64,000 nt of DNA from an uncultured SAR116 cluster alpha proteobacterium. Its GTDB lineage: Bacteria; Pseudomonadota; Alphaproteobacteria; Puniceispirillales; Marisalimonadaceae. Below are positions 1,542-21,565 of this stretch, one piece after another. The stretch spans positions 52,980-116,979 of the forward strand of contig CACBMD010000002.1 of assembly GCA_902539895.1 (NCBI GenBank), given 5' to 3'. Each line of letters begins with the position of its first letter. Position 1 is the stretch's first letter. The notes below the pieces were generated by a model. It saw only the letters and a program-made list of their open reading frames with translations, was not told the DNA's origin and searched no databases. The position numbers were made by a program, and so were the translations under genes.

Positions 1542-2525
1542 ATGACACAAAGAGTGATAGAATTAACTGACTTCGGTGCTGCAGAAAATATGAAGCTTAT
1601 AGAAGCTGATATACCAACACCAGGTCCTGGGCAGATTGTTGTTAAAAATAACGCTATTGGTTTGAATTATTTAGATACTTATTTCAGAACTGGATTATAC
1701 CCTTGGCCAAATCAAGAAAAAATAAAGGTTCCAGGATCAGAAGGTGTAGGGCATGTTCATTCTGTTGGAGCTGACGTTAATTTTTTAAAAGAAGGTGATA
1801 AGGTTTCTTATGTAACTCCTGTTGGGGCATATGCAGAATATGCATTAATTAATGCTGCGCATGCAGTAGAGATCAAAGTAGATGTAGATGATCATGATGT
1901 AGTTGCAAGTACACTTAAAGGATTAACTACACATTATTTGCTTCACTTAACATTTAAGTTAGAAAGTGGCATGACTGCCCTTGTTCACGCAGCTGCTGGT
2001 GGCGTTGGTCAATTGATGGGGCAATGGGGTAGTGAAATTGGCGCTACTATGATTGGAACAGCAGGTGGCCCTGAAAAAGTAGAAGCAGCTAAAAAAGCTG
2101 GTTACCATCATGTCATTGACTACAACAGCCAGGATTTTGTTGCTGAAGTAATGAGCATAACAAATAACCAAAAATGTGATGTTGTTTATGACAGTGTTGC
2201 AAAATCAGTTTTTCCTGGATCTTTAGATTGTCTGAAGCCTAGAGGTTTATGGGCATTATTTGGGCAAGCATCAGGACCTATTACTGATTTTAATTTAGCT
2301 ATGTTGTCTGCAAAAGGTTCTTTATTTGCAACTAGACCAACATTATTTACTTACATCGCAAATAGAGATGAGTATAACGATGCTTCCTATCAACTTTATA
2401 GTAGAATTGCTGATGGAAGATTAAAAGTGGCTATTCATGACAGAATACCATTAGAAAAAATTGTGGATGCACACAATTTGCTTGAAGGTAGAAAAACTAA
2501 AGGTGGAATTGTAATTACTCTTTAA
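1542..2525 (+). CDS. Zinc-independent MDR quinone oxidoreductase (NADPH:quinone reductase)
   Basis: 327 aa; NAIGLNYLDTYFRTGLYPWP, VHAAAGGVGQLMGQWGSEIGA. Confidence 0.9.
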   Translation: MTQRVIELTDFGAAENMKLIEADIPTPGPGQIVVKNNAIGLNYLDTYFRTGLYPWPNQEKIKVPGSEGVGHVHSVGADVNFLKEGDKVSYVTPVGAYAEYALINAAHAVEIKVDVDDHDVVASTLKGLTTHYLLHLTFKLESGMTALVHAAAGGVGQLMGQWGSEIGATMIGTAGGPEKVEAAKKAGYHHVIDYNSQDFVAEVMSITNNQKCDVVYDSVAKSVFPGSLDCLKPRGLWALFGQASGPITDFNLAMLSAKGSLFATRPTLFTYIANRDEYNDASYQLYSRIADGRLKVAIHDRIPLEKIVDAHNLLEGRKTKGGIVITL

Positions 2526-2541
2526 ATGTAAGGATAAGAAT

Positions 2542-3180
2542 ATGATAGATTTGTATACTTGGCATACACCAAATGGAAGAAAAGTTTCTATAATGCTAGA
2601 AGAAATAGGAATGGCTTATAATGTGTTTCCTATAAATATAGCTAAGGACGAACAGTTTCAGCCTCATTTTTTAGAGGTTTCTCCGAATAATAGAATTCCA
2701 GCAATAGTAGATAAAGAAAATAATAACTATTCGCTTTTTGAATCAGGTGCAATTCTAATGTATTTGGCTGAAAAAAGTGGAAAATTAATTAATAAATCTA
2801 ATTCTGATGAATATTATAGAACCATTGAATGGTTAATGTGGCAAATGGGTGGAGTAGGGCCGATGTTTGGTCAAGTGCATCACTTTGTTAAGTATAACAA
2901 GGGAAAATCTGCTTATGCTGAAGAGAGATATTCTAAAGAGGCAAGAAGATTATACGGTGTTATGGATAAACGTCTTGGTCAGCATCAATATATATCTGGA
3001 AAAGAATATAGTATTGCAGATATATCAATTTGGCCATGGACTGCTAGATTTGATTGGCAAGAAATAGATTTAAATGAATTTCCAAATGTCACTAGGTGGT
3101 ACAAAGAAATGGCAGATAGGCCAGCTATCCAAAAAGGTTGGCTTGTTCCGCAAAATGATCAATTAATTCCATCACCATGA
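2542..3180 (+). CDS. Glutathione S-transferase family protein
   Basis: 212 aa; LYTWHTPNGRKVSIMLEE, SPNNRIPAIVD, ESGAILMYLAEKSGK. Confidence 0.92.
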   Translation: MIDLYTWHTPNGRKVSIMLEEIGMAYNVFPINIAKDEQFQPHFLEVSPNNRIPAIVDKENNNYSLFESGAILMYLAEKSGKLINKSNSDEYYRTIEWLMWQMGGVGPMFGQVHHFVKYNKGKSAYAEERYSKEARRLYGVMDKRLGQHQYISGKEYSIADISIWPWTARFDWQEIDLNEFPNVTRWYKEMADRPAIQKGWLVPQNDQLIPSP

Positions 3181-3192
3181 TTTAGTAATAAT

Positions 3193-4203
3193 TTGGCTAT
3201 TAAAATTTCAATTGCTGGTCTTGGTTGGTGGGGAAAAGTGATGATCGAAAGATTGTCACGTTCCAATAAACTTGAAATCGTAAATTTGATTGATCCTTTT
3301 CCAGATCAAGAGGCTTTAAAACTAGCAAAAGCTAATAATCTAGAGATCTATAAAGATTTGGATGATGCTTTGAATTCCAAAACGTTTGAAGCAATAGTTT
3401 TGTGTACTCCTAATTCATTTCATATGGAACAAACACTTAAAGCATCAAAATTGGGAATACATGTTTTTTGTGAAAAGCCTCTTTCATTAAAATCATCTGA
3501 AGTTAAAGAAATGATAAATGCTTGTAATCAAAATGGGTTAGTTCTTGGCGTTGGTCATGAAAGACGATTTGAAAAGGGATGGATTAGATTAAAAGAAATT
3601 ATAAATAGTAATAAACTGGGCAATATTATGCATGCTGAGGCGCATTTCAGTCATGATAAATTAGCTAACCTTCCAGTTGATAATTGGAGAGCCGATCCGG
3701 AATTTGCACCTGCTGCTGGAATGACAGGTATGGGAGTACATTTAACAGATCTTATGATTTGGTTATTTGGCCCAGTAGACAAAGTTTTTGCTTCTACTGC
3801 AAAGAGGGCTCTCAAATTTAAAACAGGTGATGTGGTTACAGCAAATTTACAACACTCTTCTGGGCTTAATGCTCAAATCACAGCAATATTAAAGACACCC
3901 CACTACCAAAGAGTAACCATTTGGGGAGAAAGTGGCTGGGTTGAATTAGTTGACAGTTCCCACCCAGATACACCAGGCCCTTCTTTCATGAAAATAGTTA
4001 TGAATGATGGCACGGTTAAAGAAGAAAATTTTGAATGGACAGATACCGTGTCTGCAAATATTCACAATTTCATAGATAGCATTCAAGGCCAAAGTAAATA
4101 TCTTTTCACGGATGTTGAAAAGTTTCAAAACATATCTGTATTAGAGGCTATTTATAGATCTAGTTTATCGAAACAAAACGAAACAGTAGAGAGTTTTAAT
4201 TAA
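3193..4203 (+). CDS. Gfo/Idh/MocA-family oxidoreductase
   Basis: 336 aa; IAGLGWWGK, VLCTPNSFH, GIHVFCEKPLSL. Confidence 0.9.
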   Translation: MAIKISIAGLGWWGKVMIERLSRSNKLEIVNLIDPFPDQEALKLAKANNLEIYKDLDDALNSKTFEAIVLCTPNSFHMEQTLKASKLGIHVFCEKPLSLKSSEVKEMINACNQNGLVLGVGHERRFEKGWIRLKEIINSNKLGNIMHAEAHFSHDKLANLPVDNWRADPEFAPAAGMTGMGVHLTDLMIWLFGPVDKVFASTAKRALKFKTGDVVTANLQHSSGLNAQITAILKTPHYQRVTIWGESGWVELVDSSHPDTPGPSFMKIVMNDGTVKEENFEWTDTVSANIHNFIDSIQGQSKYLFTDVEKFQNISVLEAIYRSSLSKQNETVESFN

Positions 4204-6557: not shown

Positions 6558-7601
6558 ATGAAAAAAAAATCTATTCCAGATAATATAAGTAATGTAAGTC
6601 AACTTCTTGAAGATGGTCTTCTCTTTTGTGATGATTTGGGTTGTATATTATTTTCTAATAATCTGGCAAAACAATATTTAGGTGAAAACTTAATTGGTAA
6701 GTTTATTCATCATTTAGTTGATATAGAAGAGCTCAAAAATTTAAATACAAGCTATGAAAACGGTGTTTTTCATGATCAATTTAATTATCAGATAGATGAT
6801 GCTTTAAAGCGATCATTGCTAATAAAAGTTAAAAAAATTGAAAATAATCTATTTGGTGTTTTGCTTTTAGATATGACACTGCAAAGAAATCTTGAAAAAG
6901 TTAGAAGAGACTTTGTGGCAAATGTAAGTCATGAGTTAAGGTCGCCGCTTACGAGCTTGGTCGGTTTTATTGAAACCCTACTAAATGGAAACGTAGAAGA
7001 TGAAAGCACCAAAAGAAAATTTTTAAATATTATGGATGAAGAAGCCAAAAGAATGAATAGATTAATTGATGATATTTTGTCACTATCTAAAGTGGAAACA
7101 GAAGAGCATATCACACCAAATACAAACATATCTCTAATAAATCCTATTCAATATGTTATTTCATCAATTAAAGAGAGAGGTTTAAGTAAACAAAATAATC
7201 TAATATTAGAAGATTTGAGGCAAAACACTAACGATCCATGTTTTATAATTGGTAATATAGATGAGATTAATCAGGTTTTTGTGAATTTATTAGAAAATGC
7301 CATTAAGTATGGTTATGAAAAATCTGATATTCTTGTTCGCATTGAACAATTTAGGAAAGATGAGGTTATTGTAAGTGTAATAAACCAAGGTGACGGAATT
7401 CCAGAAAAATATTTAGATAGATTAACTGAAAGATTTTTTAGAGTCGATAAAGCTAGATCAAGAGAACTTGGCGGCACTGGACTTGGTCTTGCCATTGTAA
7501 AACATATTTTAATTAAGCATAGAGCAACTTTAGAAATAAAAAGTACACCTAAAGAATCAACTCATTTTGCTATGACTTTTCCGCTTGCTAACACAGATTA
7601 A
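6558..7601 (+). CDS. phoR: Phosphate regulon sensor histidine kinase PhoR-like (PAS + HisKA + HATPase)
   Basis: 347 aa; FVANVSHELRSPLTSLVGFIETL, NLLENAIKY, GGTGLGLAIVKHI; adjacent to pst genes. Confidence 0.88.
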   Translation: MKKKSIPDNISNVSQLLEDGLLFCDDLGCILFSNNLAKQYLGENLIGKFIHHLVDIEELKNLNTSYENGVFHDQFNYQIDDALKRSLLIKVKKIENNLFGVLLLDMTLQRNLEKVRRDFVANVSHELRSPLTSLVGFIETLLNGNVEDESTKRKFLNIMDEEAKRMNRLIDDILSLSKVETEEHITPNTNISLINPIQYVISSIKERGLSKQNNLILEDLRQNTNDPCFIIGNIDEINQVFVNLLENAIKYGYEKSDILVRIEQFRKDEVIVSVINQGDGIPEKYLDRLTERFFRVDKARSRELGGTGLGLAIVKHILIKHRATLEIKSTPKESTHFAMTFPLANTD

Positions 7602-15514: not shown

Positions 15515-15964
15515 CTAATTAATTTTGGTCCAATTTTCATTTATTGTAGTGCCAGAATTTCTAATAACTTTAGCAATAGGGCAATACATTGCCAATTGCT
15601 TTTTAACTTCTATTAAATCACTTTCTGAAGCATCTGTAGAGATTTCAATATCCATATTAATTTCAGGAAATGGTATATCAACTTCTTGGACTATACTGGC
15701 ACCATCTTTATTAAATAGGGTTTTGGTTTTAATATCTAACTTATCAATTTTAAAACCCATTTTTCCCATTATTCTATGAGTTATGACGTTTGTACATCCT
15801 ATTAGTGACGATACAAGTGTTTCTGTTGGAGAGAGGCCTAAATTAGTACCACCTCTTACAATAGGCTCGTCTATAACGCTCTCAACATCTCTTGTTAATA
15901 TGTCAGTTCTTGAATGGCTTTTAGAAGATCCTTCAAGTTTCATATGCACAACATTATCACTCAT
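15515..15964 (-). CDS. OsmC family protein
   Basis: 149 aa; GLSPTETLVSSLIGCTNVITHRIMGKMG, MYCPIAKVIRNSGT. Confidence 0.88.
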   Translation of the reverse strand: MSDNVVHMKLEGSSKSHSRTDILTRDVESVIDEPIVRGGTNLGLSPTETLVSSLIGCTNVITHRIMGKMGFKIDKLDIKTKTLFNKDGASIVQEVDIPFPEINMDIEISTDASESDLIEVKKQLAMYCPIAKVIRNSGTTINENWTKIN

Positions 15965-16139: not shown

Positions 16140-16982
16140 ATGAAAGCAGCTGATTTTTCATATCACGAAGCAGTAAATTTACAAGATGCTATAAAAATTA
16201 AAGCACAAGATGATGAGGCAGTCATTTTAGCAGGTGGTCAATCTTTGTTACCTGCACTTAATATGAGATTATCAAGTCCTACTTGTTTAATAGATATTTC
16301 TAAAATCAGTGGGTTGAATGAAATCAAAATAGACGGACAAACCTTGTTCATTGGTGCTTTAGCAACACATTCAGATGTTATGAATAATAAAATAGTTAAA
16401 GATAACATGCCTTGCATGATTGATATTTTAAAAATGGTTGCTCATCCAGCAATTAGAAATAAAGGTACTCATGGAGGAAGTATAGCTTATGGTGACCCTG
16501 CCGCAGAATTGCCTGCCTTAGCAGTTGCAACAAATGCTGAAATAATTGTTTCTGGTCAAAATGGTGAAAGATTAATTAATGCTAAAGAATTTTATTTAGG
16601 CCTATTTGAAACAGGTATAAATCAAGATGAAATAGTAGTTGGTATAAAATACCCATTATTAAAACAAGGACAAAAAATTGTTTTTGATGAAGTATGTAGG
16701 CGGCATGGTGATTACGCTATGGCAGGATTAATTGCAAATATCATGGGTTCAAAAAATGATATCTAAGATCTAAAATTAGTATTTTTTGCTACTGGAGATA
16801 AGCCAGATGTTGCTGATAAAACTGCAAGATTATATCTAGATAATGGTTATGATTATGACAAATTAAAAAACTCTTTAAGCACAGAGATAGATTTTGCAGG
16901 TGACTTAAATAGTAGTTCAGAAATGAAGCTTCACTTAGCAGCAGTTTTGATCAAAAAAGTTTTAAGTAAATTGGAGATTTAA
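16140..16982 (+). pseudogene. CoxM-type FAD-binding subunit of molybdenum hydroxylase, interrupted by one in-frame TAA (16764-16766)
   Basis: AGGQSLLPALNMRLSSP, IRNKGTHGGSIAYGDPAAELPA; after TAA the same frame continues as DLKLVFFATGDKPDVADKTARLYLDNGYDYDKLKNSLSTEIDFAGDLNSSSEMKLHLAAVLIKKVLSKLEI, ending right before coxS ATG. Confidence 0.9.
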
Positions 16983-17459
16983 ATGGCTGCTAATAACTCA
17001 GTTAATATATCTTTTACAGTCAATGGGGAAAGATTTAATAATGTAAATGTTCCTTCAAGACAGCATTTAGCAGATTATCTAAGATCACAAGGTTTTACCG
17101 GCACACATTTAGGATGTGAGCAGGGAGCATGCGGCGCTTGTACTATAGAGATGGATGGCAAAGCTGTTAGGTCATGTTTGGTTTTAGCATCACAAGCCAA
17201 TGGTACAAATTTAAAAACTGTAGAGGGTTTTGATGATGAAATGATGGAAAAAGTGAAGCAGAATTTCCTTAAACATAATGCTTTTCAATGTGGTTTTTGT
17301 TCTCCTGGAATGCTCATGACTACCAAAGAGATTCTTCTAAACAAAAAAAAGCTTACTAGAGATGAAATAAGATCAGAGATTTCAGGAAATTATTGTCGGT
17401 GTACTGGTTATCAATCAATTGTAGATGCAATTGAAGAATGTATTAATGAAATTAATTAA
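16983..17459 (+). CDS. CoxS-type [2Fe-2S] subunit
   Basis: 158 aa; GCEQGACGACTIEMDG, QCGFCSPGMLM, GNYCRCTGYQSIVDAI. Confidence 0.95.
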   Translation: MAANNSVNISFTVNGERFNNVNVPSRQHLADYLRSQGFTGTHLGCEQGACGACTIEMDGKAVRSCLVLASQANGTNLKTVEGFDDEMMEKVKQNFLKHNAFQCGFCSPGMLMTTKEILLNKKKLTRDEIRSEISGNYCRCTGYQSIVDAIEECINEIN

Positions 17460-17469
17460 GGTGTAAGAT

Positions 17470-19863
17470 ATGGATGATATTAAAGTAAATCAAAATCCTA
17501 AATTAGGATCATTAGATAGGCCCAACTCATATATTGGAAGAAGTCTGCCAAGAGAAAATGCAAAAAAACATCTTGATGGTGGTGGTCAGTTTGTTGATGA
17601 TTTAACTTTACCTAGAATGGTTCATGTCGCCTTTTTAAGGTCACCTTTTGCTCATGCTGAAATAAAGTCAATAAAAACTAATGAAGCAAAAAAATCTGAC
17701 GGTGTAGTAGATGTATTTACTGCAAAAGAAATTGATGAAGTATGCAAACCTTGGATTGGTACCTTAGGTCATTTAGGTGAAATGAGATCACCAGAACAAA
17801 CACCATTGGCAAAAAAAATTGCTAGATGGCAGGGTGAACCTGTTGCAGTAGTAATTGCAGATTCAAGAGCTCAGGCAGAAGATGCATTGGAGCTTATTGA
17901 AGTGGACTGGGCGGAAAAGGAAGCTCAAGTTGATATGGAAACTGCTTTAGACTCTAATGCAGTAGTTATTCATCCAGAACTTGGTAATAATTTATTTTGG
18001 ACAAGAACAGTTAATCAAGGAGATGTTGAAAAAGCATTTAAAGAAGCTGATGCTGTTGTTGAAACAACGCTTGATTTTGCAAGACACACAGGTGTCACAT
18101 TAGAATCTAGAGGTATTGTTGCCGATTGGAATAAAGCTGAAAACAAAATGACAATTTATCATAATGGTCAGGCGCCTCACATGATGCAACATATCATTGC
18201 TAAACACTTAGATTTAAACGAGGGTTTAGTAAGAATTGTAAGTAGAGACGTAGGTGGTTCTTTTGGAATAAAAGTTCATGTTTATCCTGATGAAATGGCT
18301 GTAACAGCTATTTCCAAAAAAATAGAAAGACCTGTCAAATTTATCGCTGACAGATTAGAAAGTTTTACAACAGATATTCATGCAAGATGTCATAAAATTA
18401 GTGGCAAACTTGGCGTTGATAAAAATGGAAAAATATTAGCTATGGAGATTGATGATCTGAGTGGTATTGGTCCATTTAGCATGTATCCTAGAACATCAGC
18501 GATTGAAACTAATCAGGTTCTAAATCTTTCAGGTGCTCCTTATGTTATTCCAAATTATAAAGCTATTGGTACTGTGGTGTTTCAAAACAAAACTCCTATG
18601 TGCCAATATAGAGCTGTAGGTCATCCAATAGCGGTGGCTATAACTGAAGCTTTAATAGATAAAGCGGCATATAAAATTGATATGGACATTGATCAAATAA
18701 GAAAAATAAATTTTATTCCTGACAATGCATATCCTAATAAATGTCCTTCAGGAGTTCCTTTAGAGGATCTTTCCCATGAAGCATCAATGGACAAACTTCT
18801 TGAAATTATGGATATAAAAGAAATAGAGGCGCAAAAAGAAGAAGATTTCAAAAAAGGTCTTTTAACAGGTCATGGCGTCATAAGCATGTGCGAAGTAACT
18901 AACCCAAGTCCATTATTCTATGGTGTAGGAGGCGCACATATTTCATCTCAAGATGGTGCTTCGATTAGACTTGAAGGTTCTGGAGCAATTCATTTATCGT
19001 CATCTATAACCGAACAAGGTCAAGGAACTGAGGCTATTATGAAGCAGATAGCAGCAGATCAACTTGGCGTTAAAATGGAATCTGTGAGAGTTACATTAGG
19101 CGATACAGATGCTACTCCTTACGGTGGTGGTACTTGGGCCTCAAGAGGAGCCGGCATAGGTGGTGAAGCTGTTCTTAAAGCTGCTAGAAAACTTAAAGAT
19201 AATATTTTAAATATTGCTGCTGCCATTATGCAAGCTGATAAGGACGCACTTGATATAGAAGATAATAATGTCATCAGAAAAAATGGCGGAGAAGGTATTT
19301 CTCTGCAAAAATTAGCTGAGACTGTTTATTATAGGGGGCACGAATTACCAAAAGGAACCAATGCTGAATTACTAGCAACTGCTAGTTTCTTAATTGAAGG
19401 TATACCTTTTGTATTCACCAATAGTGCTATGGGCTGTCAAATTTCAATAGATCAGGATACTGGGATTATTAAAATAAATAAATTTTGGGCTGTTGAAGAT
19501 TGTGGAACACAAATTAATCCTAAATTAGTAGAAGAACAGATTAGGGGAGGAGTTATTCAAGGCATTGGTGGCGCTTTATTTGAAGAATGTGTATATGATG
19601 ATCAAGGAAATATGCAGAATGCAACTATGGCTGACTATCTAGTTCCTATGGCTTATGAGATGCCTGATATAATTGTTGACCATGTAACAACTAATTCTGG
19701 AAGAAGTATCATAGGGGCTAAAGGAGCTGGTGAGGCAGGAACTGGTGGTGCGCCAGCAGTTATTATGAATGCTGTAAATAATGCTTTAAAACAAGTTAAT
19801 GCAGAAGTGGTATCTCAACCTATTACACCAGAGAAAATACTAAAAGCTTTAGGAAAAATATAG
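17470..19863 (+). CDS. CoxL-type molybdopterin-binding large subunit of xanthine dehydrogenase family (not a CO dehydrogenase)
   Basis: 797 aa; RSPFAHAEIKSI, DVGGSFGIKVHVYPDE, CQYRAVGHPIAVAITE, GAKGAGEAGTGGAPAVIMNAV. Confidence 0.93.
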   Translation: MDDIKVNQNPKLGSLDRPNSYIGRSLPRENAKKHLDGGGQFVDDLTLPRMVHVAFLRSPFAHAEIKSIKTNEAKKSDGVVDVFTAKEIDEVCKPWIGTLGHLGEMRSPEQTPLAKKIARWQGEPVAVVIADSRAQAEDALELIEVDWAEKEAQVDMETALDSNAVVIHPELGNNLFWTRTVNQGDVEKAFKEADAVVETTLDFARHTGVTLESRGIVADWNKAENKMTIYHNGQAPHMMQHIIAKHLDLNEGLVRIVSRDVGGSFGIKVHVYPDEMAVTAISKKIERPVKFIADRLESFTTDIHARCHKISGKLGVDKNGKILAMEIDDLSGIGPFSMYPRTSAIETNQVLNLSGAPYVIPNYKAIGTVVFQNKTPMCQYRAVGHPIAVAITEALIDKAAYKIDMDIDQIRKINFIPDNAYPNKCPSGVPLEDLSHEASMDKLLEIMDIKEIEAQKEEDFKKGLLTGHGVISMCEVTNPSPLFYGVGGAHISSQDGASIRLEGSGAIHLSSSITEQGQGTEAIMKQIAADQLGVKMESVRVTLGDTDATPYGGGTWASRGAGIGGEAVLKAARKLKDNILNIAAAIMQADKDALDIEDNNVIRKNGGEGISLQKLAETVYYRGHELPKGTNAELLATASFLIEGIPFVFTNSAMGCQISIDQDTGIIKINKFWAVEDCGTQINPKLVEEQIRGGVIQGIGGALFEECVYDDQGNMQNATMADYLVPMAYEMPDIIVDHVTTNSGRSIIGAKGAGEAGTGGAPAVIMNAVNNALKQVNAEVVSQPITPEKILKALGKI

Positions 19864-20359: not shown

Positions 20360-21565
20360 TTAAATTTTATAATCTTCCATGTCATAAAGGCTAATGGCAG
20401 TATCTTTTAAAACGTTTTGAACATTTGGCATTATTAAGTCTTCATTGTTTTTCGGTATAGATAAATACTGACCTAATTTCCTACTTCTATTAACAATAAA
20501 CTGACTTTCTTTTAACCTGCTGTGTTCCCATTTGTCTAAATCATCCAAATTAGAGCTGTCTTCTAAATATTCAGACAAAGTAAAAGCATCCATGGCAGCT
20601 TTAGTAACACCCATTCCAACATGAGGTCTTGCAGTAAACGCAGCATCTCCAATTGTTACAACTCTTCCATTTTTCATCTTCATACTTTGGAGATCAAAAA
20701 TAGGTTGAATAAGGGGTTGTTTTGTTATTTTTACTAATTCAAAAAGCTGAGGAGGAAGTTTTTCTTCTGCCTCTCTAAATAAATCATTAACAATTTCTTC
20801 TCTTATTTCATTTGGAGGTATGCCATCTTCAAATTGTTGACCTGATTTACCCAATAAAATTTCTTTAAGTTTCTTTTGAGGAACAGGTTTGTACCATATC
20901 CAATTAATTCTTCTCTCGCCAATTTTAAATGGATTTTCACCTTCTCCAGCAATTGGATAGGAAGCTATTTGCTGATTATAGGGTAGTACAACAATAAAAT
21001 AATTTGAGAGTATTTCTAAAGAATTTTTACTAATTTCTTCTTCATTAACAACTCCTCTCCAACCAACATAACCAGCATATTGTGGATAAGCTTTATTATC
21101 TACGTATGTTCTTAATTCAGATTTAATACCATTTGCAACTATTATTAAATCAGTTTCCTTTTTCTTTCCATTTTCAAAAAAAGCTATTGCTTTATCTTCA
21201 TTTTGTTCAATTTTAATACAATCATCACCCATGAAGTAATCATCATTACTTATTTGTTCTCTTAGAATAGAAAATAAATATTGCCAACTTGTATATACTT
21301 GAGGGTAATCATAACTATTGATTATTTTTCCATTAATATCTAAAGACACTCTTGATTTTGCTGTCGTGCCCAGAACGTTATTATTATTTGTAGCTTTAAA
21401 AACGAGATCAGCTAATTCGTCATAAGTAGCAATACCAGCACCACGTCCTGAAAGCGGGACAGGAACTTTTTCATGTACGGAAATGTCCCATCCTTTTTTT
21501 GAAAGGGCGGTGGCAGCAAACAGACCTGCCATTGAACCACCAATAATAGTCGCGGATGGTTTCAT
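20360..21565 (-). CDS. FAD-dependent monooxygenase, 2,6-dihydroxypyridine 3-monooxygenase (DHPH)-like
   Basis: 401 aa; IIGGSMAGLFAATALSKKGWDISVHEK, PLSGRGAGI, YAGYVGWRGVV, GRVVTIGDAAFTARPHVGMGVTKAAMDAFTLSEYL. Confidence 0.85.
   Translation of the reverse strand: MKPSATIIGGSMAGLFAATALSKKGWDISVHEKVPVPLSGRGAGIATYDELADLVFKATNNNNVLGTTAKSRVSLDINGKIINSYDYPQVYTSWQYLFSILREQISNDDYFMGDDCIKIEQNEDKAIAFFENGKKKETDLIIVANGIKSELRTYVDNKAYPQYAGYVGWRGVVNEEEISKNSLEILSNYFIVVLPYNQQIASYPIAGEGENPFKIGERRINWIWYKPVPQKKLKEILLGKSGQQFEDGIPPNEIREEIVNDLFREAEEKLPPQLFELVKITKQPLIQPIFDLQSMKMKNGRVVTIGDAAFTARPHVGMGVTKAAMDAFTLSEYLEDSSNLDDLDKWEHSRLKESQFIVNRSRKLGQYLSIPKNNEDLIMPNVQNVLKDTAISLYDMEDYKI

Follow-up and report, generated by a model that had tools for sequence, protein, structure and literature searches.

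Described relatives of the operon

Quinoline 2-oxidoreductase (PDB 1t3q) and 6-hydroxypseudooxynicotine dehydrogenase (7dqx) are built on a three-subunit plan of FAD, [2Fe-2S] and molybdenum subunits, and the aerobic CO dehydrogenase CoxMSL has the same subunit composition, with its genes in the order M-S-L. The operon described here shares the plan and the domain families of the first two enzymes and the composition and gene order of the third. It lies in the window, a stretch of 64,000 nucleotides of DNA, and the assembly from which this comes has SAR116-cluster alphaproteobacteria as its nearest named relatives. Unlike its counterparts in the 1t3q and 7dqx systems, the FAD subunit of the window is truncated in this assembly; 7dqx is its best match in the PDB, and the intact FAD subunit of a relative can be aligned over almost its whole length with CutM/CoxM (1ffv, 1n5w).

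The large subunit differs from that of aerobic CO dehydrogenase. Neither the AYxCSFR loop of form I nor the AYRGAGR loop of form II is present in it, the likely corresponding stretch being QYRAVGHP, and its scores against the NCBIfam models for the CO dehydrogenase large subunit (481.9 bits where 950 are required, and 437.4 where 991 are) fall far below the cut-offs. Its best match in the PDB is quinoline 2-oxidoreductase, with a CO dehydrogenase chain (8uem) scoring almost equally; N-heteroaromatic hydroxylases are among its closest relatives of solved structure. By its sequence, the operon encodes a xanthine-dehydrogenase-family molybdenum hydroxylase for which the "Cox" label holds at the family level only, and hydroxylation of N-heteroaromatic compounds would be the likeliest putative function, ahead of CO oxidation. 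An earlier note on this DNA had named the three genes coxM, coxS and coxL; that naming stands at the family level only, the large subunit being without the signature motifs of CO dehydrogenase. A search of the literature on SAR116 CO dehydrogenase and on nonsense changes in marine single-cell genomes returned nothing directly on point.

The surroundings of the operon (Table 1) also suggest a putative catabolic role. Between positions 15515 and 25000 of the window, the molybdenum hydroxylase is accompanied by a monooxygenase resembling 2,6-dihydroxypyridine hydroxylase, a cyclase-family hydrolase, a VOC protein and a PcaD-like hydrolase. Among 80 related loci (L031-L110), a homolog of the monooxygenase was found in 58, betaproteobacteria included, and a VOC-family gene in 46; linkage of the two recurs in Polynucleobacter and Comamonadaceae. 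Such a neighbourhood suggests a widely conserved cluster for N-heteroaromatic catabolism.

Table 1. Coordinates of the FAD-subunit gene, its in-frame stop and the neighbouring genes in the window.
Feature	Position	Strand	Basis
OsmC-family gene; conserved divergent neighbour	15515..15964	-	
N-terminal part of FAD subunit, 208 codons, FAD_binding_5	16140..16763	+	open from ATG; motifs AGGQS and GGSIAYGDPA
In-frame TAA; AAA (Lys) in four closest orthologs	16764..16766	+	ortholog alignment
Last 71 FAD-subunit codons, most of CO_deh_flav_C, intact, 3' of stop	16767..16979	+	translation, Pfam, orthologs
[2Fe-2S] small subunit, intact; GGAG ribosome-site-like stretch inside end of FAD-subunit gene	16983..17459	+	translation, Pfam
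Molybdopterin large subunit, intact; without AYxCSFR and AYRGAGR; nearest solved relative quinoline 2-oxidoreductase	17470..19863	+	
FAD monooxygenase, nearest solved relative 2,6-dihydroxypyridine hydroxylase (2vou); conserved convergent neighbour	20360..21565	-	

A stop codon within the FAD subunit

Translation of the frame at 16140-16982 yields 208 residues before the TAA, after which the same frame continues for its remaining codons, with no frameshift, up to a second TAA (16980-16982) lying immediately before the iron-sulfur subunit's ATG. The gene is thereby cut at residue 208 of 280, roughly three quarters of the way through. All of this agrees with the earlier note, which had described the early stop, the 71 open codons beyond it and a terminal stop touching the coxS ATG, and had reported coxS and coxL to be intact; both the iron-sulfur and the molybdopterin subunits are indeed whole.

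The stop does not coincide with a domain boundary. FAD_binding_5 (residues 5-173; Pfam, 7e-43) is complete before it, and the TAA falls about one third of the way into CO_deh_flav_C. By itself, the segment beyond the stop matches the latter domain weakly (Pfam, 0.0027), while the read-through frame passes at 1.1e-6 and 29.1 bits against the Pfam cut-off of 25.5; CO_deh_flav_C is thus above its cut-off only when the TAA is read through, and not in the translated product.

Ancestral codon, constraint and age

The four closest orthologs share 94-98% protein identity with the window's subunit and all carry AAA (Lys) at the position of the stop, so the ancestral state was a lysine codon and the lesion a single A-to-T transversion. 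The earlier note's view that one substitution, without a frameshift, separates this gene from an open one is borne out in this way, and AAA had been among the sense codons that it considered. In the same four relatives, the orthologs of the 71 codons beyond the stop are 94-97% identical and free of indels. A full-length open frame is found in 17 of 17 aligned orthologs of SAR116 type. When 40 genomes of the genus were compared, one per species, 13 had an ortholog (E of 1e-60 or better), and an internal stop (one TAA) occurred only in the window's genome, the gene being intact in the 12 others. The A-to-T change falls on a branch private to the window's genome, and the codons 3' of the stop are genuine coding sequence.

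Constraint on the two parts of the gene is similar, with pN/pS against the four close relatives ranging from 0.09 to 0.38 after the stop and from 0.05 to 0.25 before it. The absence of indels downstream, together with these ordinary values, indicates that the stop is either very young or absent from the cell, and an older decay of the distal segment was rejected for the same reasons. The genome closest by coxM, AAA015-N04, differs from the window at approximately 8-9% of synonymous sites, and the nonsense change must therefore be younger than the split from that lineage. Changes unique to the window amount to three nonsynonymous and seven synonymous in the FAD subunit, compared with 4 and 23 in its two partner genes (Fisher p = 0.36, not significant), where the coxL share of the counts is a lower bound owing to the chimeric nature of the AAA015-N04 record in that gene. 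Local template copying was considered as the origin of the transversion, given that ATCTAA recurs a few bases downstream, and was set aside because the repeat is too short to serve as evidence.

Lesion rate and quality of the assembly

The assembly containing the window comprises 1.44 Mb in 71 contigs and is 69% complete with almost no contamination; from this shape, it looks like a single-cell genome. Approximately 1.09 Mb of it was compared with approximately 1.68 Mb of a sister genome, G014, covering 530 ORFs and some 158,000 aligned codons (474 kb). Within these codons, the FAD subunit provides the one credible mid-gene nonsense change in a long gene of the window's genome; the remaining flagged stops lie in ORFs of 80-106 residues or adjoin a likely start codon. 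In the reverse comparison, two or three stops in mid-gene turned up in G014, along with two frameshifts. In-frame stops of this kind, at sites open in the window's genome, are seen in G014 on L135 (near 1311-2063), L173 (near 514-1254) and L196 (near 6627-6893).

In a published benchmark of single-cell assemblies, the error rate per 100 kb was 5.0 mismatches and 3.0 indels (PMC6122165). Random substitutions would yield a stop in 5.3% of cases in the compared codons, and 129 of 2,520 single substitutions would create one in a relative's gene. If the assembly is of single-cell origin, approximately 1.25 artefactual stops would be expected over the 474 kb at the benchmark rate, relative to the one observed. 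The same source predicts approximately 14 indels over the compared stretch, relative to a single gene with two frameshifts, and such a shortfall indicates that this assembly may contain fewer errors than those of the benchmark. As a rate, one such lesion is nothing unusual.

The gene with the two frameshifts, on contig C1 of the window's genome (L113, 7063-8252), encodes a VWA/CoxE-like protein of 396 residues and carries two insertions of one A each, both in A-runs; it is otherwise 97-98% identical to the G014 copy (L195, 17643-18833). These shifts may be true frameshifts or homopolymer errors, and they suggest some residual sequence error. A joint loss of the cox maturation system through this gene was not adopted as an interpretation, the Pfam score being 26.1 against a cut-off of 26.4.

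A separate irregularity affects the same operon in AAA015-N04 (L032), in which coxL is cut by an inverted junction with an 8-bp overlap (2200-3108 and 3068-3808). The junction joins the equivalent of window position 18344 to an inverted 15371, so that the deacetylase region from upstream follows in reverse orientation. Inverted junctions with short overlaps are typical of chimeras formed during whole-genome amplification (PMC1855051), and this origin replaced operon decay as the reading of the truncated coxL.

Explanations of the stop

The altered codon is private to the window's genome and is set in an otherwise intact and conserved gene. We lean slightly towards a real nonsense mutation of AAA (Lys) to TAA, either recent and private or segregating in the population, with neither recoding nor a split function, on the premise that the cell carries the same base as the assembly. 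Similar mid-gene nonsense changes in other genes of the sister genome G014 support such a mutation. Close behind as an explanation, at somewhat less than an even chance, is an error of amplification, sequencing or assembly, the gene being intact in the cell. A fragmented, incomplete and nearly uncontaminated assembly resembling a single-cell genome speaks for error, as do the agreement between predicted and observed artefactual stops, the amplification-type chimera in the same operon of a sister single-cell record, codons beyond the stop that appear fully selected, and the A-run insertions in the VWA/CoxE-like gene. Against error stand the far smaller number of indels than the benchmark predicts and the position of the A-to-T site outside any long homopolymer; moreover, the single-cell origin is itself something we infer. 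The event shares its private substitution, its intact remainder and the company of similar G014 events with single nonsense pseudogenes and base errors in draft single-cell genomes, and no feature was found that distinguishes it from these. It can be put down either to a commonplace nonsense mutation private to this genome or to a mistake in sequencing, and not to a new biological mechanism.

The earlier note had also offered readthrough and a functional split protein, and these two options, in contrast to nonsense mutation (or polymorphism) and assembly error, are not supported; even jointly, recoding and a functional split are quite improbable. The conserved frame beyond the stop would be expected if the TAA were read through or recoded to give a full-length subunit. 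However, TAA is the commonest stop here, ending 513 of the 712 ORFs that are at least 200 codons long; none of the relatives among the 13 genus genomes with an ortholog has a stop at this codon; and none of the genome's other long conserved genes has a sense codon credibly turned into a mid-gene stop. A scan of 1.09 Mb with ARAGORN yielded no suppressor tRNA, nor were Rfam elements found around the stop site, and we regard readthrough as the least probable reading of all. It is very unlikely that the gene functions through two halves translated separately, or that the 208-residue form is functional by itself. A complete FAD_binding_5 precedes the stop, yet every close ortholog seen is full length and the cut falls inside the C-terminal domain rather than between domains. 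Furthermore, no ATG, GTG or TTG start lies near the beginning of the 71 codons, the first in-frame ATG coming about two thirds of the way through, so the C-terminal segment could not be made as a separate half. Slimmer still is the prospect that truncation to 208 residues is real and tolerated, the shortened subunit still supporting or re-routing electron transfer; in that case, the C-terminal domain would be dispensable in this lineage.

Significance

If the nonsense mutation is real, then in a xanthine-dehydrogenase-family molybdenum hydroxylase of three subunits a single recent A-to-T transversion would truncate the FAD subunit and remove most of its C-terminal domain. The passage of electrons from the [2Fe-2S] subunit to FAD would probably be impaired, and the enzyme may be lost or impaired. 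As one private stop in a draft genome, the lesion carries little biological weight, and it serves as a caution against taking a lone stop in a fragmented draft assembly for split genes or recoding. For SAR116 bacteria, the operon labelled "cox" more likely encodes a putative N-heteroaromatic hydroxylase than a CO oxidiser.
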